Source: a virus
Direction: 5' to 3' (one strand)
Length of the DNA stretch: 22,901 nt
IMG/VR virus record: IMGVR_UViG_3300011114_000477
Coordinates: 1-22,901 of that record
How positions within the stretch are numbered: the stretch's first letter is position 1; each line of letters starts with the position of its first letter. A program made the translations under genes and the position numbers. This document shows, in pieces, positions 3,107 through 22,901 of the stretch. Under the pieces are notes generated by a model that did no database searches, was not told the origin of the DNA, and saw nothing but the letters and a program-made list of their open reading frames with translations.

Positions 3107-4614
3107 GGCTTAACCACCGTAGCGGCTCCCCACCCGGACGCAGGCGGTGGCGCGGCCCCGCCGAACTTCGGCTTGTAGTTGGCGCCCACTCCGAACAAGT
3201 CCCACACGGCCTTGCGCGACACGTCCACGCTGTGATTGAGAACGCCGCCCATCTTCTCCGTCGCGGACTTAACCGCCGCCGTGAGACCCTTGGCGCCCCC
3301 GCTGGAAAGGCCATTCATAATCACTTGCTCGGCTTCTTTGCGGTCTGCCTCCGTGATGCCGTTTCCGCTTCGGCCCTGAAGGGCCGCGTTGTAAGCCGCA
3401 AGCTCGGCGCGAAGCTGGTTAAGCTGGAAGCGATAGTTCTGAACGTCGGGGTCGTTCGTTTCGCCGCCCGCGAACATCTTGGCGACATTTGCCAGCCGGA
3501 CCTTGTTGCCCGCGACTTTATCAGCAATGGGCGCGAGATTTTCGAGGGTGCCGTTAAGCTCGCCCTCCATGATCTTCGTCTGGTTAACGCGCTTGATGTT
3601 GGCGGTAAGCGTGTCGTTATAGGCTTCGTACTGGCTTGCGAGGACGGCGGAATCCACCCCATTTTTATTCGCGAAATTCTCAGCGGCCTTGAAGGCGGCG
3701 TTTCGCGAGGCCGCATCACGCGGGATTTTACTGGCTTGCCCCGTGAGCGCGTAGAAGCCGGGCAGTGAGAGCCCCGTCTGCGCGAGGATGCTACCGCTTT
3801 CCGGGTCTGTCGCCGTCGGAGCATCGGGGGTCGCGGCGGTCGCATCGGCCTTGTCGCGAGCGCGTGCAATCGCCTCTTGCTGGCCGACATAGCCGGGAAT
3901 GGGTGTCCATTTCCCATCCTCGCCCTTTTCCAAGCCACCCGCGATCTGCGAATTTCTTGGTGCGGGAGGCGCCGCCTCGTTTTTGTAAACTTGGACAGGC
4001 TGTCCGTCTGGGCCAGTCTTTACCCCTGCCGCGCCCGGCGCGTACACTTGCACCTTATTCGCGTCCTGAAGCGCTTGGCGTCTGCGCTCCGCTTCGTCCT
4101 GCACCTGGGACAGCCGCCCCTCGATGCCGAATTGCTGAAGCTCCGGGAAGCGCGAACCGGCGGCGGCCTCATAAGCGCCTTGAACCGATGGCGCGCGGGA
4201 GAATTTCTGACCGCCCAATGCGCCGGCCAATGCCTCCGGGGATGCCTGCTCACCCGTTGGTGATGCCAGCAATCCCGCCATGGCGTGCTCGCCCATTTCG
4301 GGGGTGCCGTAGCCTTGAAGGGCGCGTGCGATTTTCGCCATGTCGCCGGAACGCTCGGAGGATTCCGCCTCGTTGAGCCTGAGTGCTTCGGCGGTGTTTT
4401 CCTTCTCGCGGCGCTTGGCGTTGTATGCGTCAAGCATTTTGGCGATGCCGGAGAGCGGGGAGATTTGGCCCTCGAAGCCTCCCACATTGGTCGTCTCGAT
4501 AGGCTCGCGCGCCTGCTGCGCCAATATTTCGGCGAGCTTCTGCTGGCGTTCTACCTCCGCCCGTTGCGCGGCGTAGGGGTTGGCGTAGTTGAAATTGACG
4601 TATTGGTTTGCCAT
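3103..4614 (-). CDS. Putative internal virion / ejection protein, P22 gp20 position
   Basis: 503 aa, ATG start, four bases after the upstream stop codon; its TGA overlaps the next gene's GTG. The sequence is rich in Ala, Gln, Glu and Lys. Helical segments likely to form coiled coils lie at about residues 14-36 (AQRAEVERQQKLAEILAQQA) and in the region of DEAERRRQALQDANK. A Pro/Ala-rich linker follows in the middle, and the C-terminal tail is Pro/Gly-rich (KFGGAAPPPASGWG). There is no signal peptide and no catalytic motif. Composition, length and position between the repeat protein and the gp16-like protein match the second ejection protein of P22-type phages. This is positional inference, not a recognised domain. 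Confidence 0.6.
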   Translation of the reverse strand: MANQYVNFNYANPYAAQRAEVERQQKLAEILAQQAREPIETTNVGGFEGQISPLSGIAKMLDAYNAKRREKENTAEALRLNEAESSERSGDMAKIARALQGYGTPEMGEHAMAGLLASPTGEQASPEALAGALGGQKFSRAPSVQGAYEAAAGSRFPELQQFGIEGRLSQVQDEAERRRQALQDANKVQVYAPGAAGVKTGPDGQPVQVYKNEAAPPAPRNSQIAGGLEKGEDGKWTPIPGYVGQQEAIARARDKADATAATPDAPTATDPESGSILAQTGLSLPGFYALTGQASKIPRDAASRNAAFKAAENFANKNGVDSAVLASQYEAYNDTLTANIKRVNQTKIMEGELNGTLENLAPIADKVAGNKVRLANVAKMFAGGETNDPDVQNYRFQLNQLRAELAAYNAALQGRSGNGITEADRKEAEQVIMNGLSSGGAKGLTAAVKSATEKMGGVLNHSVDVSRKAVWDLFGVGANYKPKFGGAAPPPASGWGAATVVKP

Positions 4615-4618
4615 CAGG

Positions 4619-7600
4619 TCACCACTTCATCCCCATCGCGGAAGAACCGAGCCCGAAAATGCCCTGCATCAAAGCGTTTGAGTTGGCCGATTGCGCTTTA
4701 TACATATCCATCGCGTTTTGCCCTTGGGCCTGCGCCGCCTGGAATACAGGAGCGGCGTCTACGTTCTGGCCCTGGTAGCCCTGGAACTGCGGCAGTTGGA
4801 TTTGCGAGCCCGACATGAGGGCAGCGATTTCGTTCAGCGGCTGGTTTCTGAGCGCGAGTTGCTGCGCAAGCGATTGGGCAATGGATTGATTGCCGAATTG
4901 CGCGGCCTGAAGGTTCTGGTTGAACCCCTGGCCTAGCGCGGCATTGTAAGCGCCCGCCGAAGTAACCCCCTGCCCGAAGTTCTGCGCAACGCTCGCATTG
5001 GCCGCCTGCTGCGCTGCTTGGCCCTGACCGAAGTTCTGCGCGATGGCTGAATTAAGCGCCTGGTTTGCGATCTGGCCCTGGCTGAAATTCTGGCCGATGG
5101 CCTGGTTGTTCGCCGCATTGGCCGCTTGGCCCTGACCGAAGTTCAGACCGATAGCTCGATTGTAAGCATCGTTCGCGGCCTGACCTTGCCCAAAATTCTG
5201 ACCGATGGCGGCGTTCTGGGCGGCAGACTGTTGCTGACCCTGTCCGAAGTTTTGACCCAGGGCCGAGTTTTGTAATTGCTGGGCCACCTGGCCTTGGCCG
5301 AAATTCTGCGAGATGGCGCGGTTGTAGGCGTCGTTCGCGTTTTGGCCCTGCGCGAAATTCTGACCCATCGCGGAATTGGCGATCTGCTGCGCGGCTTGGC
5401 CTTGCGAGAAATTCTGGCCGACCGCCGCATTGGCCGCCGATGACTGCTGCTGGCCTTGGCCGAAATTCTGCGCGGCGGCGGCGTTTTGAGCAGCCTGGAT
5501 CGCGGCGGCTTGGCTGTAGTTCTGTCCAATAGCCCGGTTATAGGCATCATTCGCGGCTTGGCTTTGAGCGAAGTTCTGCCCCGACGCCTGATTTTGCATC
5601 TGTTGGGCGGCTTGGCCTTGGCCGAAATTCTGCGATAGCGCCTGATTGTAGAGCCCGGCATTTTGCATCCCGGCCCCGAACTGCGCCAACTGTGCCGTGT
5701 TGCCGAAATTCCCAGCCGTGACACCTTGGCCGAAATTCTGGGCAATGGCCGAGTTTCCGGCCTGCTGGTTCTGCATCGCCGCGTTGAAGGCGTCGAGTTG
5801 CGATTGATTGCCGAATTGCGCCTGACCCTGCGCTTGGCCGTATTGCTGGCCCTGGGCGGCGTTCGCTGCGGCCTGCTGGGAAAGCGCCGCCTGCTGGTTT
5901 TGACCGAGCGCACTATTCTGTAGCTGCGCGCCTGTGACGCCTTGGCCGAATTGCTGCGCGCTCGCCTGATTGAACGCCTGCTGCGACGCGATCCCTTGGC
6001 CGAAGTTTTGGCCTATGGCTTGGTTGCCCGCCTGCTGATTTTGCATAGCGGCAAGGAAAGCGTCCTGCTGGGCCTGGTTGCCGAATTGCGCCGCCGATTG
6101 CTGCTGCCCGAAATTCTGCGCCGCCGCCTGATTGGCAAGCTGCTGGCCTTGCACGTTGGCGCCGAAGGATGCGAGTTGCGCCTGATTGCCGAACTGCCCG
6201 CCTTGGATAGCGCGGTTGAAGTTCTGGTCTATCGCCTGATTTCCGGCCTGCTGATTGGTGAGGTCCGCGTTGAAGCCCGCCATCTGCGCTTCGTTGCCGA
6301 ATTGCGCTTGCGCTTGCGCCTGCGAAAATCCTTGAGCGTTCGCGCTGGTGTCGAGCCCGATGCCGTAGAGGGCGGCTTGGGAGAGCAAATCGTTGCGCTG
6401 CTGGCCCGCGTCCGTCATGGCGTTCGTGTAGGCTTCGCCGCCCGCGACAAGCCCTTGGTTCGCGAGCCTCTGACGGAGCGCCGCGTCCTGGCGGTCCAAT
6501 TGAGGTGCCAACCGGGCCATGATCGCGTCTTGGCCCGTCGTCCCGGCATTGACCGGCATTTGAGCCATGCCGTTGGTTCGGATCGAGCTCTCTAGGGTCG
6601 GCCTCGCAACGCCGCCCTGCGAGGTTCCGAAAGAGCCGATCTGTGTTTGCAGCGACGGGCCCGAGACATTCCCCTGGGCCTGCTGATAGGGGCCTAGAGA
6701 GGTCTGATAATTCGGGCTGTTGACCCCGCCTTGCGCCATGCCAAACGCGCCCGCTCCCGGCCCATGATCCACAGGCGTCTGCGCGACATTGCCATCGGCC
6801 TGGCCCATCCCCATGAGATTGGGCGCACCCGCGACGGAACCGAACCCGCCATAACCGGACTGAAGGTTTGGACCGTTAACGCCGCCTTGGGCCTGCCCGT
6901 AGGACGCAAGGGCCGATTGGAGATTAGGCCCTGAGACATTGCCTTGGGCCGACCCATAGGCGTTCCCGCTCGGTCCACCGCCAGCCGCATAGGAGCCAGC
7001 GGAAGGCCCGCCGTCGGCCATGCCGTACAGGCCCATCGAGGGCCCGCCGCCCGCGCTATAATTCGCAGCCGAGGGCCCGCCGTCGGCCATGCCGTAGGCG
7101 CTGCCAGCGGGCCCGCTACCGGCGGAATAGCTGTCCGCCGAAGGCCCGCCGCTTGCAGAGCCATAGGCACCGGCGGATGGACCGCCACCAGCACTGTAAT
7201 TCGCAGCGGAGGGCCCGCCGCCAGCATAACCGTAATCGCCCCCACTCGGGCCAGCGCTGGCCGAGCCATAAGCACCGCCGGACGGACCACCATATGCGGA
7301 GCCATAGGCGCCACCGCTCGGACCTGCATTGGCGGAACCGTAGGCACCGCCGGATGGACCGCCGCTTGCCAAGCCATAGGCGGAAGGGGTTGGGCCGTAA
7401 TTGGGCGCGTAATTCCCCCCGAGAGAGGTCTGCATGTTGGGCAGATTGGGGCTGAAGGGATTGCTGATGACGCTTCGAGCCGTGCCGATCCCCTGGACGC
7501 CCAAGTCGGCCAAGTTCCTGGACACCTGCTGCTGGGAATTAAGTGTGGCCTGCGCGTCGGGCGTGAGCGACTGCGTGACCGTCGGCTGGTCCCCATTCCA

Positions 7601-7744
7601 AGACACCACCTGCGAGCCGAGCGGCCCGTAGACATTAGGGTTACTCATCCTCCCGGAGACGCGCGCGGCATCGACATTCGCAGCGCCTTGAGCGACAGCG
7701 GCACCGGCATAATCAGGGGGAGCGGGAGGGCTTGGAGCACACAT
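4619..7744 (-). CDS. 1041-aa repeat virion protein (Gly/Ser-rich and Gln/Asn/Phe-rich repeats)
   Basis: The N-terminal ~105 residues (MCAPSPPAPPDYAGAA, then SNPNVYGPLGSQ and LTPDAQATL) match a recurrent podovirus virion protein start. Residues 117-268 are about 13 GPSxxxY-type units of 11-12 residues. Residues 398-470 hold a conserved phage core (DRQDAALRQRLANQGLVAGG, then EAYTNAMTDAGQQRND). Residues 473-941 are 27 units in a strict 18-residue register with an aromatic at each register position. The C-terminal ~80 residues are non-repetitive. The gene lies between the GNAT gene and the ejection genes, where P22 carries gp26/gp14/gp7, so a tail, needle or internal core role is likely. The composition (Gln, Asn, Ala, Gly, Phe) is low-complexity and could be prion-like or fibrous. 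Exact function unknown. Confidence 0.8.
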   Translation of the reverse strand: MCAPSPPAPPDYAGAAVAQGAANVDAARVSGRMSNPNVYGPLGSQVVSWNGDQPTVTQSLTPDAQATLNSQQQVSRNLADLGVQGIGTARSVISNPFSPNLPNMQTSLGGNYAPNYGPTPSAYGLASGGPSGGAYGSANAGPSGGAYGSAYGGPSGGAYGSASAGPSGGDYGYAGGGPSAANYSAGGGPSAGAYGSASGGPSADSYSAGSGPAGSAYGMADGGPSAANYSAGGGPSMGLYGMADGGPSAGSYAAGGGPSGNAYGSAQGNVSGPNLQSALASYGQAQGGVNGPNLQSGYGGFGSVAGAPNLMGMGQADGNVAQTPVDHGPGAGAFGMAQGGVNSPNYQTSLGPYQQAQGNVSGPSLQTQIGSFGTSQGGVARPTLESSIRTNGMAQMPVNAGTTGQDAIMARLAPQLDRQDAALRQRLANQGLVAGGEAYTNAMTDAGQQRNDLLSQAALYGIGLDTSANAQGFSQAQAQAQFGNEAQMAGFNADLTNQQAGNQAIDQNFNRAIQGGQFGNQAQLASFGANVQGQQLANQAAAQNFGQQQSAAQFGNQAQQDAFLAAMQNQQAGNQAIGQNFGQGIASQQAFNQASAQQFGQGVTGAQLQNSALGQNQQAALSQQAAANAAQGQQYGQAQGQAQFGNQSQLDAFNAAMQNQQAGNSAIAQNFGQGVTAGNFGNTAQLAQFGAGMQNAGLYNQALSQNFGQGQAAQQMQNQASGQNFAQSQAANDAYNRAIGQNYSQAAAIQAAQNAAAAQNFGQGQQQSSAANAAVGQNFSQGQAAQQIANSAMGQNFAQGQNANDAYNRAISQNFGQGQVAQQLQNSALGQNFGQGQQQSAAQNAAIGQNFGQGQAANDAYNRAIGLNFGQGQAANAANNQAIGQNFSQGQIANQALNSAIAQNFGQGQAAQQAANASVAQNFGQGVTSAGAYNAALGQGFNQNLQAAQFGNQSIAQSLAQQLALRNQPLNEIAALMSGSQIQLPQFQGYQGQNVDAAPVFQAAQAQGQNAMDMYKAQSANSNALMQGIFGLGSSAMGMKW
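4871..6352 (-). repeat. 54-bp coding repeat: strict 18-residue units with periodic aromatic
   Basis: Within the 1041-aa protein, Phe or Tyr recurs every 18 residues from Phe473 to Phe941: 473, 491, 509, 527, 545, 563, 581, 599, then Gln617, Tyr635, 653 and so on to 941. That is 26 aromatics in 27 positions with no insertion or deletion. The typical unit is AIGQNFGQGQAAQQxxNx. In the first third, alternate units (QFGNQAQLxxF) give a 36-residue super-repeat. The DNA copies differ at many third positions, so the units are old or diversified, not freshly duplicated. Confidence 0.9.
6935..7396 (-). repeat. Tandem GPSxxxY coding repeats, 11-12 residues
   Basis: Thirteen units begin with Gly-Pro at residues 117, 129, 141, 153, 165, 177, 188, 200, 211, 223, 234, 246 and 257. 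From 177 onward the spacing alternates 11 and 12, making a 23-residue double unit (GPSAANYSAGG plus GPSAGAYGSASG type). The sequence is silk- or collagen-like in composition and probably extended or fibrous. Confidence 0.9.
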
Positions 7745-21266: not shown

Positions 21267-21283
21267 GCCAGGGCTTAGAGAAG

Positions 21284-21310
21284 CGGGCCGGCGTGTTTAG
21301 CGCTGGCCCG
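21284..21310. terminator. Terminator-like hairpin between convergent genes
   Basis: CGGGCCGGCGT (21284-21294) pairs with GCGCTGGCCCG (21300-21310) through 11 pairs, two of them G-U in plus-strand RNA, around a 5-base loop GTTTA. It starts 18 bases after the stop of the plus-strand gene and lies downstream of the minus-strand gene ending at 21672. Neither side has a real T-tract (TCTCCCTCGT rightward, TTCTCTAAG leftward), so it may terminate only weakly or with help. Confidence 0.45.
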
Positions 21311-21366
21311 TCTCCCTCGTAACTCAACCCGAACACGCCCTACGTCGCTCTGACGTGCGCATCCGT

Positions 21367-21662
21367 GCCATTCCTGCCTTAACCTGCCTAGACGCGCCGC
21401 TACTCAACACGCTTTGCCTCGCCTGCCTTAACGCAGCGCGCAAAACTAAGGCTTGCTGAGCCCTGCGATGACTAACCAATCCCGCCTTACACTACAGAGA
21501 CACACCCAAACGGGTCTGCCCATGCGCCTCCAATCCTGCCTACCCCGGCAGCGACTAGCCTCTCATTCCAGCGCTGAGACTGGCCTTTCCCCGCCTGCGT
21601 TGCCTAAACTGGCTTAACCGGGAAAAGCCGAAACAAGCCATTCCTGCCGATCCTGCCTCGCC
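21367..21662 (-). repeat. Degenerate GGCAGG/AGGC motif array (gap 21267-21671)
   Basis: Read on the minus strand this non-coding stretch repeats the theme AGGCAGGxxTGGC. Copies: GGCGAGGCAGGATCGGCAGG (start of 21662-21637), TTAGGCAACGC (21607-21597), TAGGCAGGATTGG (21542-21530), TAAGGCGGGATTGG (21489-21476), GCGTTAAGGCAGGCGAGGCA (start of 21434-21411) and TAGGCAGGTTAAGGCAGG (start of 21390-21367). The 12-mer GGCAGGAATGGC occurs exactly twice, 270 bp apart. No gene is seen on either strand. A related block lies upstream of the next gene, at 22231-22250. Confidence 0.55.
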
Positions 21663-21671
21663 ACCCCGCAC

Positions 21672-22175
21672 CTACTGCGCGCGGGCTTCCGTCGTCTTCT
21701 TGCGCTTCTTCTCGATAGCGTCCTGCGCCGTGCGGACGATCTCGCAAACATCTTCGAGTGAGCGGTAACGCGATTGCCACGCTTCAAGGTCGCGCGACGC
21801 CTGCGCCAGAACTTTCGCCTGCAAATCGGCGCTGCCTTTTACCGCTTGCAAAGTGCGGTAGCTCGTGCCGCCCTTATCGCTGATGGAAATGAACGCAGGT
21901 GCTTGACCGTCTTCGCCGTCATGGTCTTCGACGGTGATGGACCGGATGAGCGTTCGCGCTTGATCGAGGCGGTAGGCGTTGGCGGCGATTTCGTCGGACC
22001 ACTCGAAATGCCGGTGCAGAATGTGCCTCGGATTTTTGGCGGCAGTGACGACAACGGCGGGCGTCAATTCTCCCGCCGCACCGGCAAGAACACTCAGCGC
22101 CTCGCCGATCTTTTGAGGATCGGCTTTGTCGGCACCCTTGATCGTGAGAACTTCTCGGAAAGCGTATTTAGTCAT
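21672..22175 (-). CDS. Conserved phage protein (167 aa), unknown function
   Basis: Two in-frame ATG codons are close together. The first (22181) directly touches AGGA; the second (22175) has AGAAAGGA at a normal six-base spacing and is the better start (MTKYAFREVLTIKGADKADP). The motif AAKNPRHILHRHFEWSDEIA, then AYRLDQARTLIRSI, marks a small family I recall from many phages of Gram-negative hosts. The C-terminal half is helical and charged and ends in a basic tail (AIEKKRKKTTEARAQ). No enzymatic motif is obvious. It is flanked on both sides by the GGCAGG/GGCAAGG motif stretches and follows the partial gene at the window edge, 81 bp away. Confidence 0.8.
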   Translation of the reverse strand: MTKYAFREVLTIKGADKADPQKIGEALSVLAGAAGELTPAVVVTAAKNPRHILHRHFEWSDEIAANAYRLDQARTLIRSITVEDHDGEDGQAPAFISISDKGGTSYRTLQAVKGSADLQAKVLAQASRDLEAWQSRYRSLEDVCEIVRTAQDAIEKKRKKTTEARAQ

Positions 22176-22230
22176 TTTCATTCCTTTCTAATCCAGCCTT
22201 GTAAAGCCGGGCTGTAACTTAACGGGCATC

Positions 22231-22250
22231 GCGTTGCCCAACCTTGCCAA
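22231..22250 (-). repeat. Further copy of the GGCAAGG motif in the 22176-22256 gap
   Basis: On the minus strand TTGGCAAGGTTGGGCAACGC lies in the 81-bp gap between the two conserved genes. It shares GGCAACGC with the copy at 21607-21597 and the GGCA-GG theme with the main array. Confidence 0.4.
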
Positions 22251-22256
22251 TTAGTT

Positions 22257-22901
22257 TTATTCTGCCGCCATTCGATAATTCTCTCCTATCGGTAGCGTGC
22301 CCTTCCCGGCAGCGAAGGATTCCCACTGCCTTTCCTCGTCAGCATTGGCAAGGCGAAAACTGCCGAAAACGCCTCTTCTCTCATTTCTCCACTCCCCAAG
22401 CCCTGATGCCATGCCAGATTCCTGAACCAGAAAAGCGAACGCTTCCGGCGTCAGAATTTCGGGGTTGAATTTCGCACGCAACCGGATGGCCCAGTGCGTG
22501 AATTGCGCCCGATAAGCAAGGCTTGCGACCTTGTTCAAGCCGCTGCCGATCTTGACGGAATCCTCGCGCATCTCCGGGGCGCTGCCCCAAATCCGCACGA
22601 GCGGCATGTCGCAGATCGCGCCGGCCATGGCGGGGCGAACGCGCGTCATTTCGGCTTCGAGAAACAGGGACTGCATCACCGCCGACCGCGCAACGCCGCG
22701 ATCCTTGTGCGCCGATGCAAGGATGCAGTTCTTGATGCCGGTGACGGGAAAGCCGTAGACGCCCTCCGACATTTCGTACAGCGACGAAACAAAGTCGCCT
22801 TGCGGGTCGCGCGCTTCCTTCGCCGCCCTAACCGCCTTGACCTGCTTCGCCAGCATTTCGCGCTTGGCCTTCTCGCTCCATGCGTGCGTGCTGAGCGGCG
22901 T
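22257..22901 (-). CDS. Conserved phage protein, C-terminal part (cut by window edge)
   Basis: The frame is open to the window edge. An ATG lies at 22856, but the 15 codons before it read TPLSTHAWSEKAKRE, which is the conserved part of this family (TPLxxHAWSEKAKREML), so the real start is outside the window. Further motifs are AKEARDPQGDFVSSLY, VYGFPVTGIKNCILASAHKD and the C-terminal ASGLGEWRNERRGVFGSFRL. The last (GxGEWR, then GxFGxF) is a Gly-rich loop also seen in RAMP-like folds, but that is only a resemblance. Proteins of this kind are frequent in phages and their role is unknown to me. It precedes the 167-aa gene in the same direction and is probably co-transcribed with it. Confidence 0.8.
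   Translation of the reverse strand, partial: TPLSTHAWSEKAKREMLAKQVKAVRAAKEARDPQGDFVSSLYEMSEGVYGFPVTGIKNCILASAHKDRGVARSAVMQSLFLEAEMTRVRPAMAGAICDMPLVRIWGSAPEMREDSVKIGSGLNKVASLAYRAQFTHWAIRLRAKFNPEILTPEAFAFLVQESGMASGLGEWRNERRGVFGSFRLANADEERQWESFAAGKGTLPIGENYRMAAE

Follow-up and report, generated by a model that had tools for sequence, protein, structure and literature searches.

The window, which is the whole stretch of DNA analysed here (22,901 bases, an IMG/VR virus record that includes a terminase gene), ends in two neighbouring genes on the minus strand. The first, called vipr below, runs into the contig end, and the second is a vap candidate. A non-coding spacer follows each gene, and both spacers are written in pentamers arranged in blocks. 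In the list, a slash marks the place where the register slips by one base at the end of a block.

22257 to 22901, minus strand: vipr, encoding a predicted RAMP-fold protein; 214 codons are visible and the 5' end is lost at the contig end
22199 to 22248, minus strand: V0, 10 pentamers forming a vrRNA-like block in the spacer that separates vipr from vap, ending with the 4-nt step GGCT/GG
21672 to 22181, minus strand: vap candidate, 169 aa, a predicted winged helix with a 50-residue C-terminal helix
21645 to 21662, minus strand: start of the downstream array, GGCGA (GGCA) GGATC (GGCA)
21600 to 21644, minus strand: V1, 9 pentamers, then the step CGCA/GG
21541 to 21595, minus strand: V2, 11 pentamers, then GGCA/GG; its decoded guide shows a suggestive match to IS1595-type transposase codons
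21487 to 21536, minus strand: V3, 10 pentamers, then GGCG/GG
21428 to 21482, minus strand: V4, 11 pentamers, then GGCA/GG
21389 to 21423, minus strand: V5, 7 pentamers, then GGCA/GG
21330 to 21378, minus strand: V6, the last and less certain block, about eight or more pentamers after a second GGCA (21375 to 21378), from a dynamic-programming parse
21283 to 21311, unstranded: imperfect hairpin CGGGCC...GGCCCG beyond the array, found from sequence and not flagged by the terminator scan

Phase and punctuation of the repeats

A preliminary description of this DNA had noticed a GGCA-GG theme, all in one orientation, in the spacers on either side of the 169-codon gene. The theme is real. GGCAGG occurs six times on the minus strand of 21267 to 21671, where 0.89 copies are expected and none of 500 dinucleotide shuffles reaches six, and is absent from the plus strand of the same region. 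AGGC occurs 13 times on that minus strand (5.0 expected; 0 of 500 dinucleotide shuffles reach 13). The motif had been said to avoid the gene between the spacers, and the gene indeed contains no GGCAGG; the variant GGCAAGG has a single copy, located in the 75-nt spacer between the two genes. The exactly repeated 12-mer is also there (GCCATTCCTGCC, at 21367 and 21637), together with a second, looser 12-mer in four copies in the same region. As described, neither spacer contains a frame of 60 codons or more in the list of open reading frames.

GGCAGG was misread, however, as the theme of the repeat. It is punctuation, since the register slips one base through GGCA/GG at the ends of blocks. What the preliminary description missed is a strict 5-nt rhythm, interrupted by one base at each of these marks. 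At period 5 the Fourier power reaches 2.13 in the spacer downstream of the 169-aa gene, compared with 0.73 in shuffles (z 10.3), and 2.74 between the genes, compared with 0.83 (z 4.8). It lies at background (z about 0) in vipr, vap and two other stretches, and periods 3, 4, 6 and 7 give no signal in either spacer. The phase is strict within the blocks V0 to V5, which hold 10, 9, 11, 10, 11 and 7 pentamers; at the block ends the slip occurs via GGCA (or GGCG, CGCA, GGCT), after which GG follows.

The pentamers share a loose GGY consensus. G predominates at position 1, position 2 holds G or T (48 of 52 units), and position 3 is C or T, with G in only 3 of the 52. Positions 4 and 5 are mixed, A and C being favoured at position 5. 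A matrix trained only on the pentamers of a related viral contig, L003, recognises the window spacers with z 7.0 and 4.4, and the opposite strand with z 0.5. As this locus shows, arrays can be so loosely written that a search for GGY would miss them, while a test based on phase (period 5) detects them.

The blocks abut, and a 3' tail of conserved structure was not found on any of them. Folding of the whole array gives z -2.7, which is not specific. Promoter and terminator scans of the window do no better than shuffles, an Rfam scan of the window yields no match, and a tRNA scan of it finds none. From its sequence, the hairpin beyond the array is a possible transcript end.

A further period-5 peak, near position 6791, sits in the coding repeats of a minus-strand gene at 4619 to 7744 and is not an array. 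This gene encodes a 1041-aa low-complexity protein with GGPSGGAYGS- and NQAIGQNFGQGQ-type repeats.

The two genes and their relatives

The gene at the contig end belongs to phrog_4652, a family of "unknown function". ORF callers start it at an ATG at 22856, giving a 199-codon ORF; this ATG is internal to vipr, and the preliminary description likewise missed that the neighbouring 199-aa frame is open as far as the contig end, position 22901. Relatives have about 25 to 40 additional N-terminal residues compared with the visible window protein. A glycine-rich AGxxxGxGExR motif is conserved across the family, its main G and R residues being invariant, and the visible part of the window protein retains the family-invariant residues.

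Pfam, NCBIfam and PADLOC contain no family for vipr or vap. When the family profile (A1) is compared with the ORFs of the Escherichia phage phiSUSP1, it matches the experimentally tested Vipr, a 195-aa gene, with E=2.2e-37, and the next ORF with 0.23. For the L003 homologue, which is 66% identical to the window protein, AlphaFold gives a model with a pLDDT of 88. This model resembles Csm3/Cas7 RAMPs (Foldseek 6e-5; Z about 10.5 over some 155 residues), and chains of Csm3 and Cas7 fill its list of PDB matches. On this model, the window Vipr is predicted to have a fold like that of the CRISPR Csm3/Cas7 RAMP proteins.

The second gene belongs to phrog_15946, also of "unknown function". Its AlphaFold model has a pLDDT of 94, and its structural matches are winged-helix proteins, all of them weak (the best is MecI, Z 5.7). 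The modelled protein thus somewhat resembles a winged helix extended by a long C-terminal helix, which would fit the DNA-binding vap proteins mentioned in PMC13142463. A profile comparison with Vap1 of phiSUSP1 finds no recognisable homology. Used on its own as a query, the vap protein retrieved no related loci.

Homologues of both genes occur together in Cheoctovirus mycobacteriophages, in Gordonia phages and in a cyanophage, while on two Rhodobacterales plasmids the neighbour of the phrog_4652 gene is not matched by phrog_15946. All of these named phages and plasmids have a pentamer array beside the phrog_4652-type gene. Their 4-nt step is GGCA (GGCG on the plasmids) and comes mostly every 7 to 13 units. 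That other phages have GGCAAGGC-rich spacers next to such genes, as the preliminary description had tentatively suggested, is correct. Among 41 loci from bacterial genomes, a vap homologue adjoins vipr in 35, and a period-5 region is present in 39, nearly always adjoining vipr or vap. The nearest of these by Vipr (71% identity) is locus L131 of a Corticibacterium sp. (NZ_JASCRR010000004.1), which suggests, by sequence similarity, a host among the Hyphomicrobiales for the window virus.

The link between array and gene can also be approached in reverse. A set of 120 viral contigs was fetched solely by the DNA pattern (GGCNN)7GGC and searched with a vipr profile built without them. A vipr homologue is present in 78 of the 120, at a median distance of 59 bp from the array, and in all 78 the array and vipr lie on the same strand. 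As a control, 19 unrelated loci contain no vipr homologue.

A few pattern-fetched contigs that lack vipr are plain microsatellites. Others have variable GGCNN arrays and no vipr detected by the profile (L004, L008, L012, L018, L035 and about 25 others among L004 to L123); possibly these belong to more divergent Vipr types, or the genes lie beyond the fetched DNA. Plasmids of Paracoccus (L128) and Sulfitobacter (L129) combine a phrog_4652 homologue with a divergent accessory gene, and GGCG/GTC replaces GGCA/GG as punctuation. In the mycobacteriophage Donkeykong (L124, NC_051648.1), the annotated gene 48 overlies a vrRNA-like array at 3482 to 3868 and is probably a spurious ORF.

Comparison with VIPR systems and other explanations

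The first description of VIPR dates from 2026 and presents it as a likely precursor of CRISPR whose guide code is gapped. According to that source (PMC13142463), it is a phage-borne relative of CRISPR whose RNAs locate and silence genes of rival genetic elements. A RAMP protein is accompanied by an accessory gene and by vrRNAs of 9 to 16 YNNGG units, which bind DNA through their NN dinucleotides with one base skipped. The carriers are mainly phages and proviruses, and in the SUSP1 and P. fulva clades each vrRNA is described as having a structured 3' tail. The phiSUSP1 locus (KT454805.2) could be found in its sequence, with the 195-aa gene, a 146-aa gene, and arrays of which one is upstream and three are downstream, in agreement with that source.

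The window locus shares the main parts of such a system: a small RAMP-family protein, a conserved accessory neighbour with a predicted winged helix, carriage by a virus, and tandem pentamers. The pentamers conform to a consensus related to GGY/NN (G, G/T, Y, then NN) rather than to GGY/NN itself, because just 28% of the units have a strict GGY. Given the period-5 spacers, the Vipr homologue on the same strand (by profile and RAMP fold) and the linkage of array and vipr in the pattern-fetched contigs, the locus is very probably a VIPR system, in which vipr and a winged-helix vap are accompanied by one vrRNA between the genes and about six in the downstream array, the spacers encoding the vrRNAs. 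VIPR itself is already known, and what the window adds is a loosely written array.

Like the window, phiSUSP1 has vipr, then vap, then a downstream array with several vrRNAs, all on one strand, and its YNNGG pentamers come in blocks of roughly ten. In contrast, its accessory protein is not homologous to the window Vap, its GGY is not loose, its blocks are separated by long tails where the window has a 4-nt GGCA step, and its first guide lies upstream whereas that of the window lies between vipr and vap. The closest relatives by Vipr, L131 and L003, have a vap and the GGCA/GG punctuation and share the window's loose consensus (49% and 45% of their units, respectively, have GG). Their guide dinucleotides differ from those of the window, and vap comes almost directly after vipr, with no array between. 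Cheoctovirus (Donkeykong genes 49 and 50) and the Gordonia phages Ecliptus and UmaThurman pair a phrog_4652-type gene with a homologue of the window's 169-aa gene and have GGCA-punctuated pentamer arrays; these differ from the window in being nearly strict GGY, the array lying upstream of vipr in Donkeykong and between the genes in the Gordonia phages.

If the tested relatives are a guide, the minus strand would be transcribed into short guide RNAs, and Vipr would bind along each pentamer block, perhaps with one subunit per pentamer. The NN dinucleotides would pair with double-stranded DNA, skipping one base per step, and the bound complex would repress genes of rival phages or mobile elements. 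The winged-helix Vap probably assists DNA binding. We propose that one guide stops and another begins at the register break GGCA/GG: the one-base slip would end one Vipr filament and begin another, so that each guide would have about ten units and no tail of its own. The "staggered arrays" mentioned in PMC13142463 may be this tail-less format. The preliminary suggestion of RNA motifs in the minus-strand transcript was right in kind, these being, in the tested relatives, guide RNAs transcribed on the gene strand.

A repeated short motif in non-coding DNA, beside a predicted winged-helix protein, might represent binding sites for a flanking protein, such as iterons, a replication origin or recombination sites. 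Yet two of the five positions vary freely while the phase is strict, the strand agreement with vipr (78 of 78) is nothing that duplex sites need, and the adjoining protein is of the RAMP type, whose fold binds RNA. This makes DNA sites very improbable. The sequence constancy of iterons or origin repeats is likewise absent. The earlier idea of binding sites for a flanking protein survives only as RNA bound by Vipr in the tested relatives, and a recombination or replication element is unsupported. A CRISPR-type array might be considered as well, as might an ordinary tandem repeat with no function, since a RAMP protein adjoins and the units are in tandem. However, there are no long, near-identical repeats with unique spacers, the units being of 5 nt with variable ends; no further cas genes were identified among the window ORFs; and a functionless repeat would not be expected to co-occur with vipr across distant hosts. 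The chance of either is negligible. The verdict "not CRISPR" was literally correct, although the flanking protein is of the CRISPR RAMP type: Vipr shares with the class 1 RAMPs Csm3 and Cas7 its predicted fold and presumably the RNA-guided principle, whereas its guide code is gapped, not contiguous.

A VIPR system might also be present as a remnant, in which a formerly strict GGYNN array is mutating after loss of function. The low share of strict GGY is what decay would produce, and with vipr cut by the contig end its integrity is not fully checkable. This share is 33% in L131 and 36% in L003, and 56 to 94% in the other relatives measured; L002, with a Vipr 62% identical, has a stricter code (66% GGY). 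Against decay, the 5-nt register is unbroken across blocks of 7 to 11 units, the changes are selective at positions 2 and 3, the visible Vipr is intact at its invariant residues, and the same loose rule is found independently in L003 and L131, both with open vipr and vap frames. A decaying array is therefore improbable. Because the substitutions are selective and common to three loci, we read the loose GGY in the window, L131 and L003 as a relaxed consensus rather than decay. A relaxed scaffold would constrain how Vipr reads the RNA backbone.

It may further be, though we put this forward tentatively and consider it somewhat doubtful, that the window, L003 and L131 form a sub-clade of VIPR. 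Its members would combine the relaxed scaffold (G, G/T, Y) with dense, tail-less arrays, the one-base slip at GGCA/GG between guides, and at least one guide directed against an insertion-sequence transposase, not a phage gene.

Decoded guides and possible targets

The guides can be decoded with the 1-nt-skip rule given in PMC13142463. V2 then reads GG AA CA TC GC AA GA TA GC CG TA, which as codons corresponds to G-K/N-H/Q-S-A-K/N-D/E-Y-A-R-Y. Compared with 374 Corticibacterium-family genomes, it has 20 matches at three mismatches or fewer, two of them with two mismatches, while a reversed V2 has 9 in the same genomes. About 14 of the 20 apparently belong to one gene family, with the peptide V/T-K-H-S-A-K-E-Y-A/V-R. 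The transposase matches are in frame, with the skipped base at the wobble position; four were read as ORFs, and one target gene checked in Pfam is an IS1595/ISXO2-type transposase (PF12762).

An exact search of viral contigs with the inner nine dinucleotides of V2 finds seven contigs. In six of them the frame through the transposase motif is open; in the seventh the same motif is interrupted by a stop. Across nine consecutive codons 18 of 18 bases agree. For the entire guide the best score is 20 of 22, and the outermost dinucleotide on each side does not match. Because the inner nine were chosen after the genome matches had been seen, and several guides were tried, the correspondence with IS1595-type transposase codons is suggestive and does not exceed chance once the number of guides is allowed for.

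The KHSAKEYAR motif of IS1595-type transposases (L173 to L176, L185 to L191) is the sole coherent match, and it belongs to guide V2. V0, V3, V4 and the first nine dinucleotides of V2 have no exact 1-nt-skip targets in viral contigs. V4 and V0 give a handful of scattered matches in 317 Corticibacterium-family genomes, near the reversed-pattern control and with no coherent target. No guide has a self-target within the window. The decoded guides of all collected loci, compared with 1.4 Mb of collected DNA, show no clear 1-nt-skip excess over shuffled guides, and none is expected since only 1.4 Mb was compared.

These results suggest a role for phrog_4652 and phrog_15946, the two families of unknown function, which are present in laboratory mycobacteriophages. 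Guides and targets can be tested in such mycobacteriophage carriers.

At the other end of the window, a 203-aa ORF on the plus strand (825 to 1436) opposes the direction of the genes and contains DRIDNNGPYSPENCRWAT. Pfam gives no match for this ORF, which we take to be reminiscent of the HNH homing endonucleases of phages.
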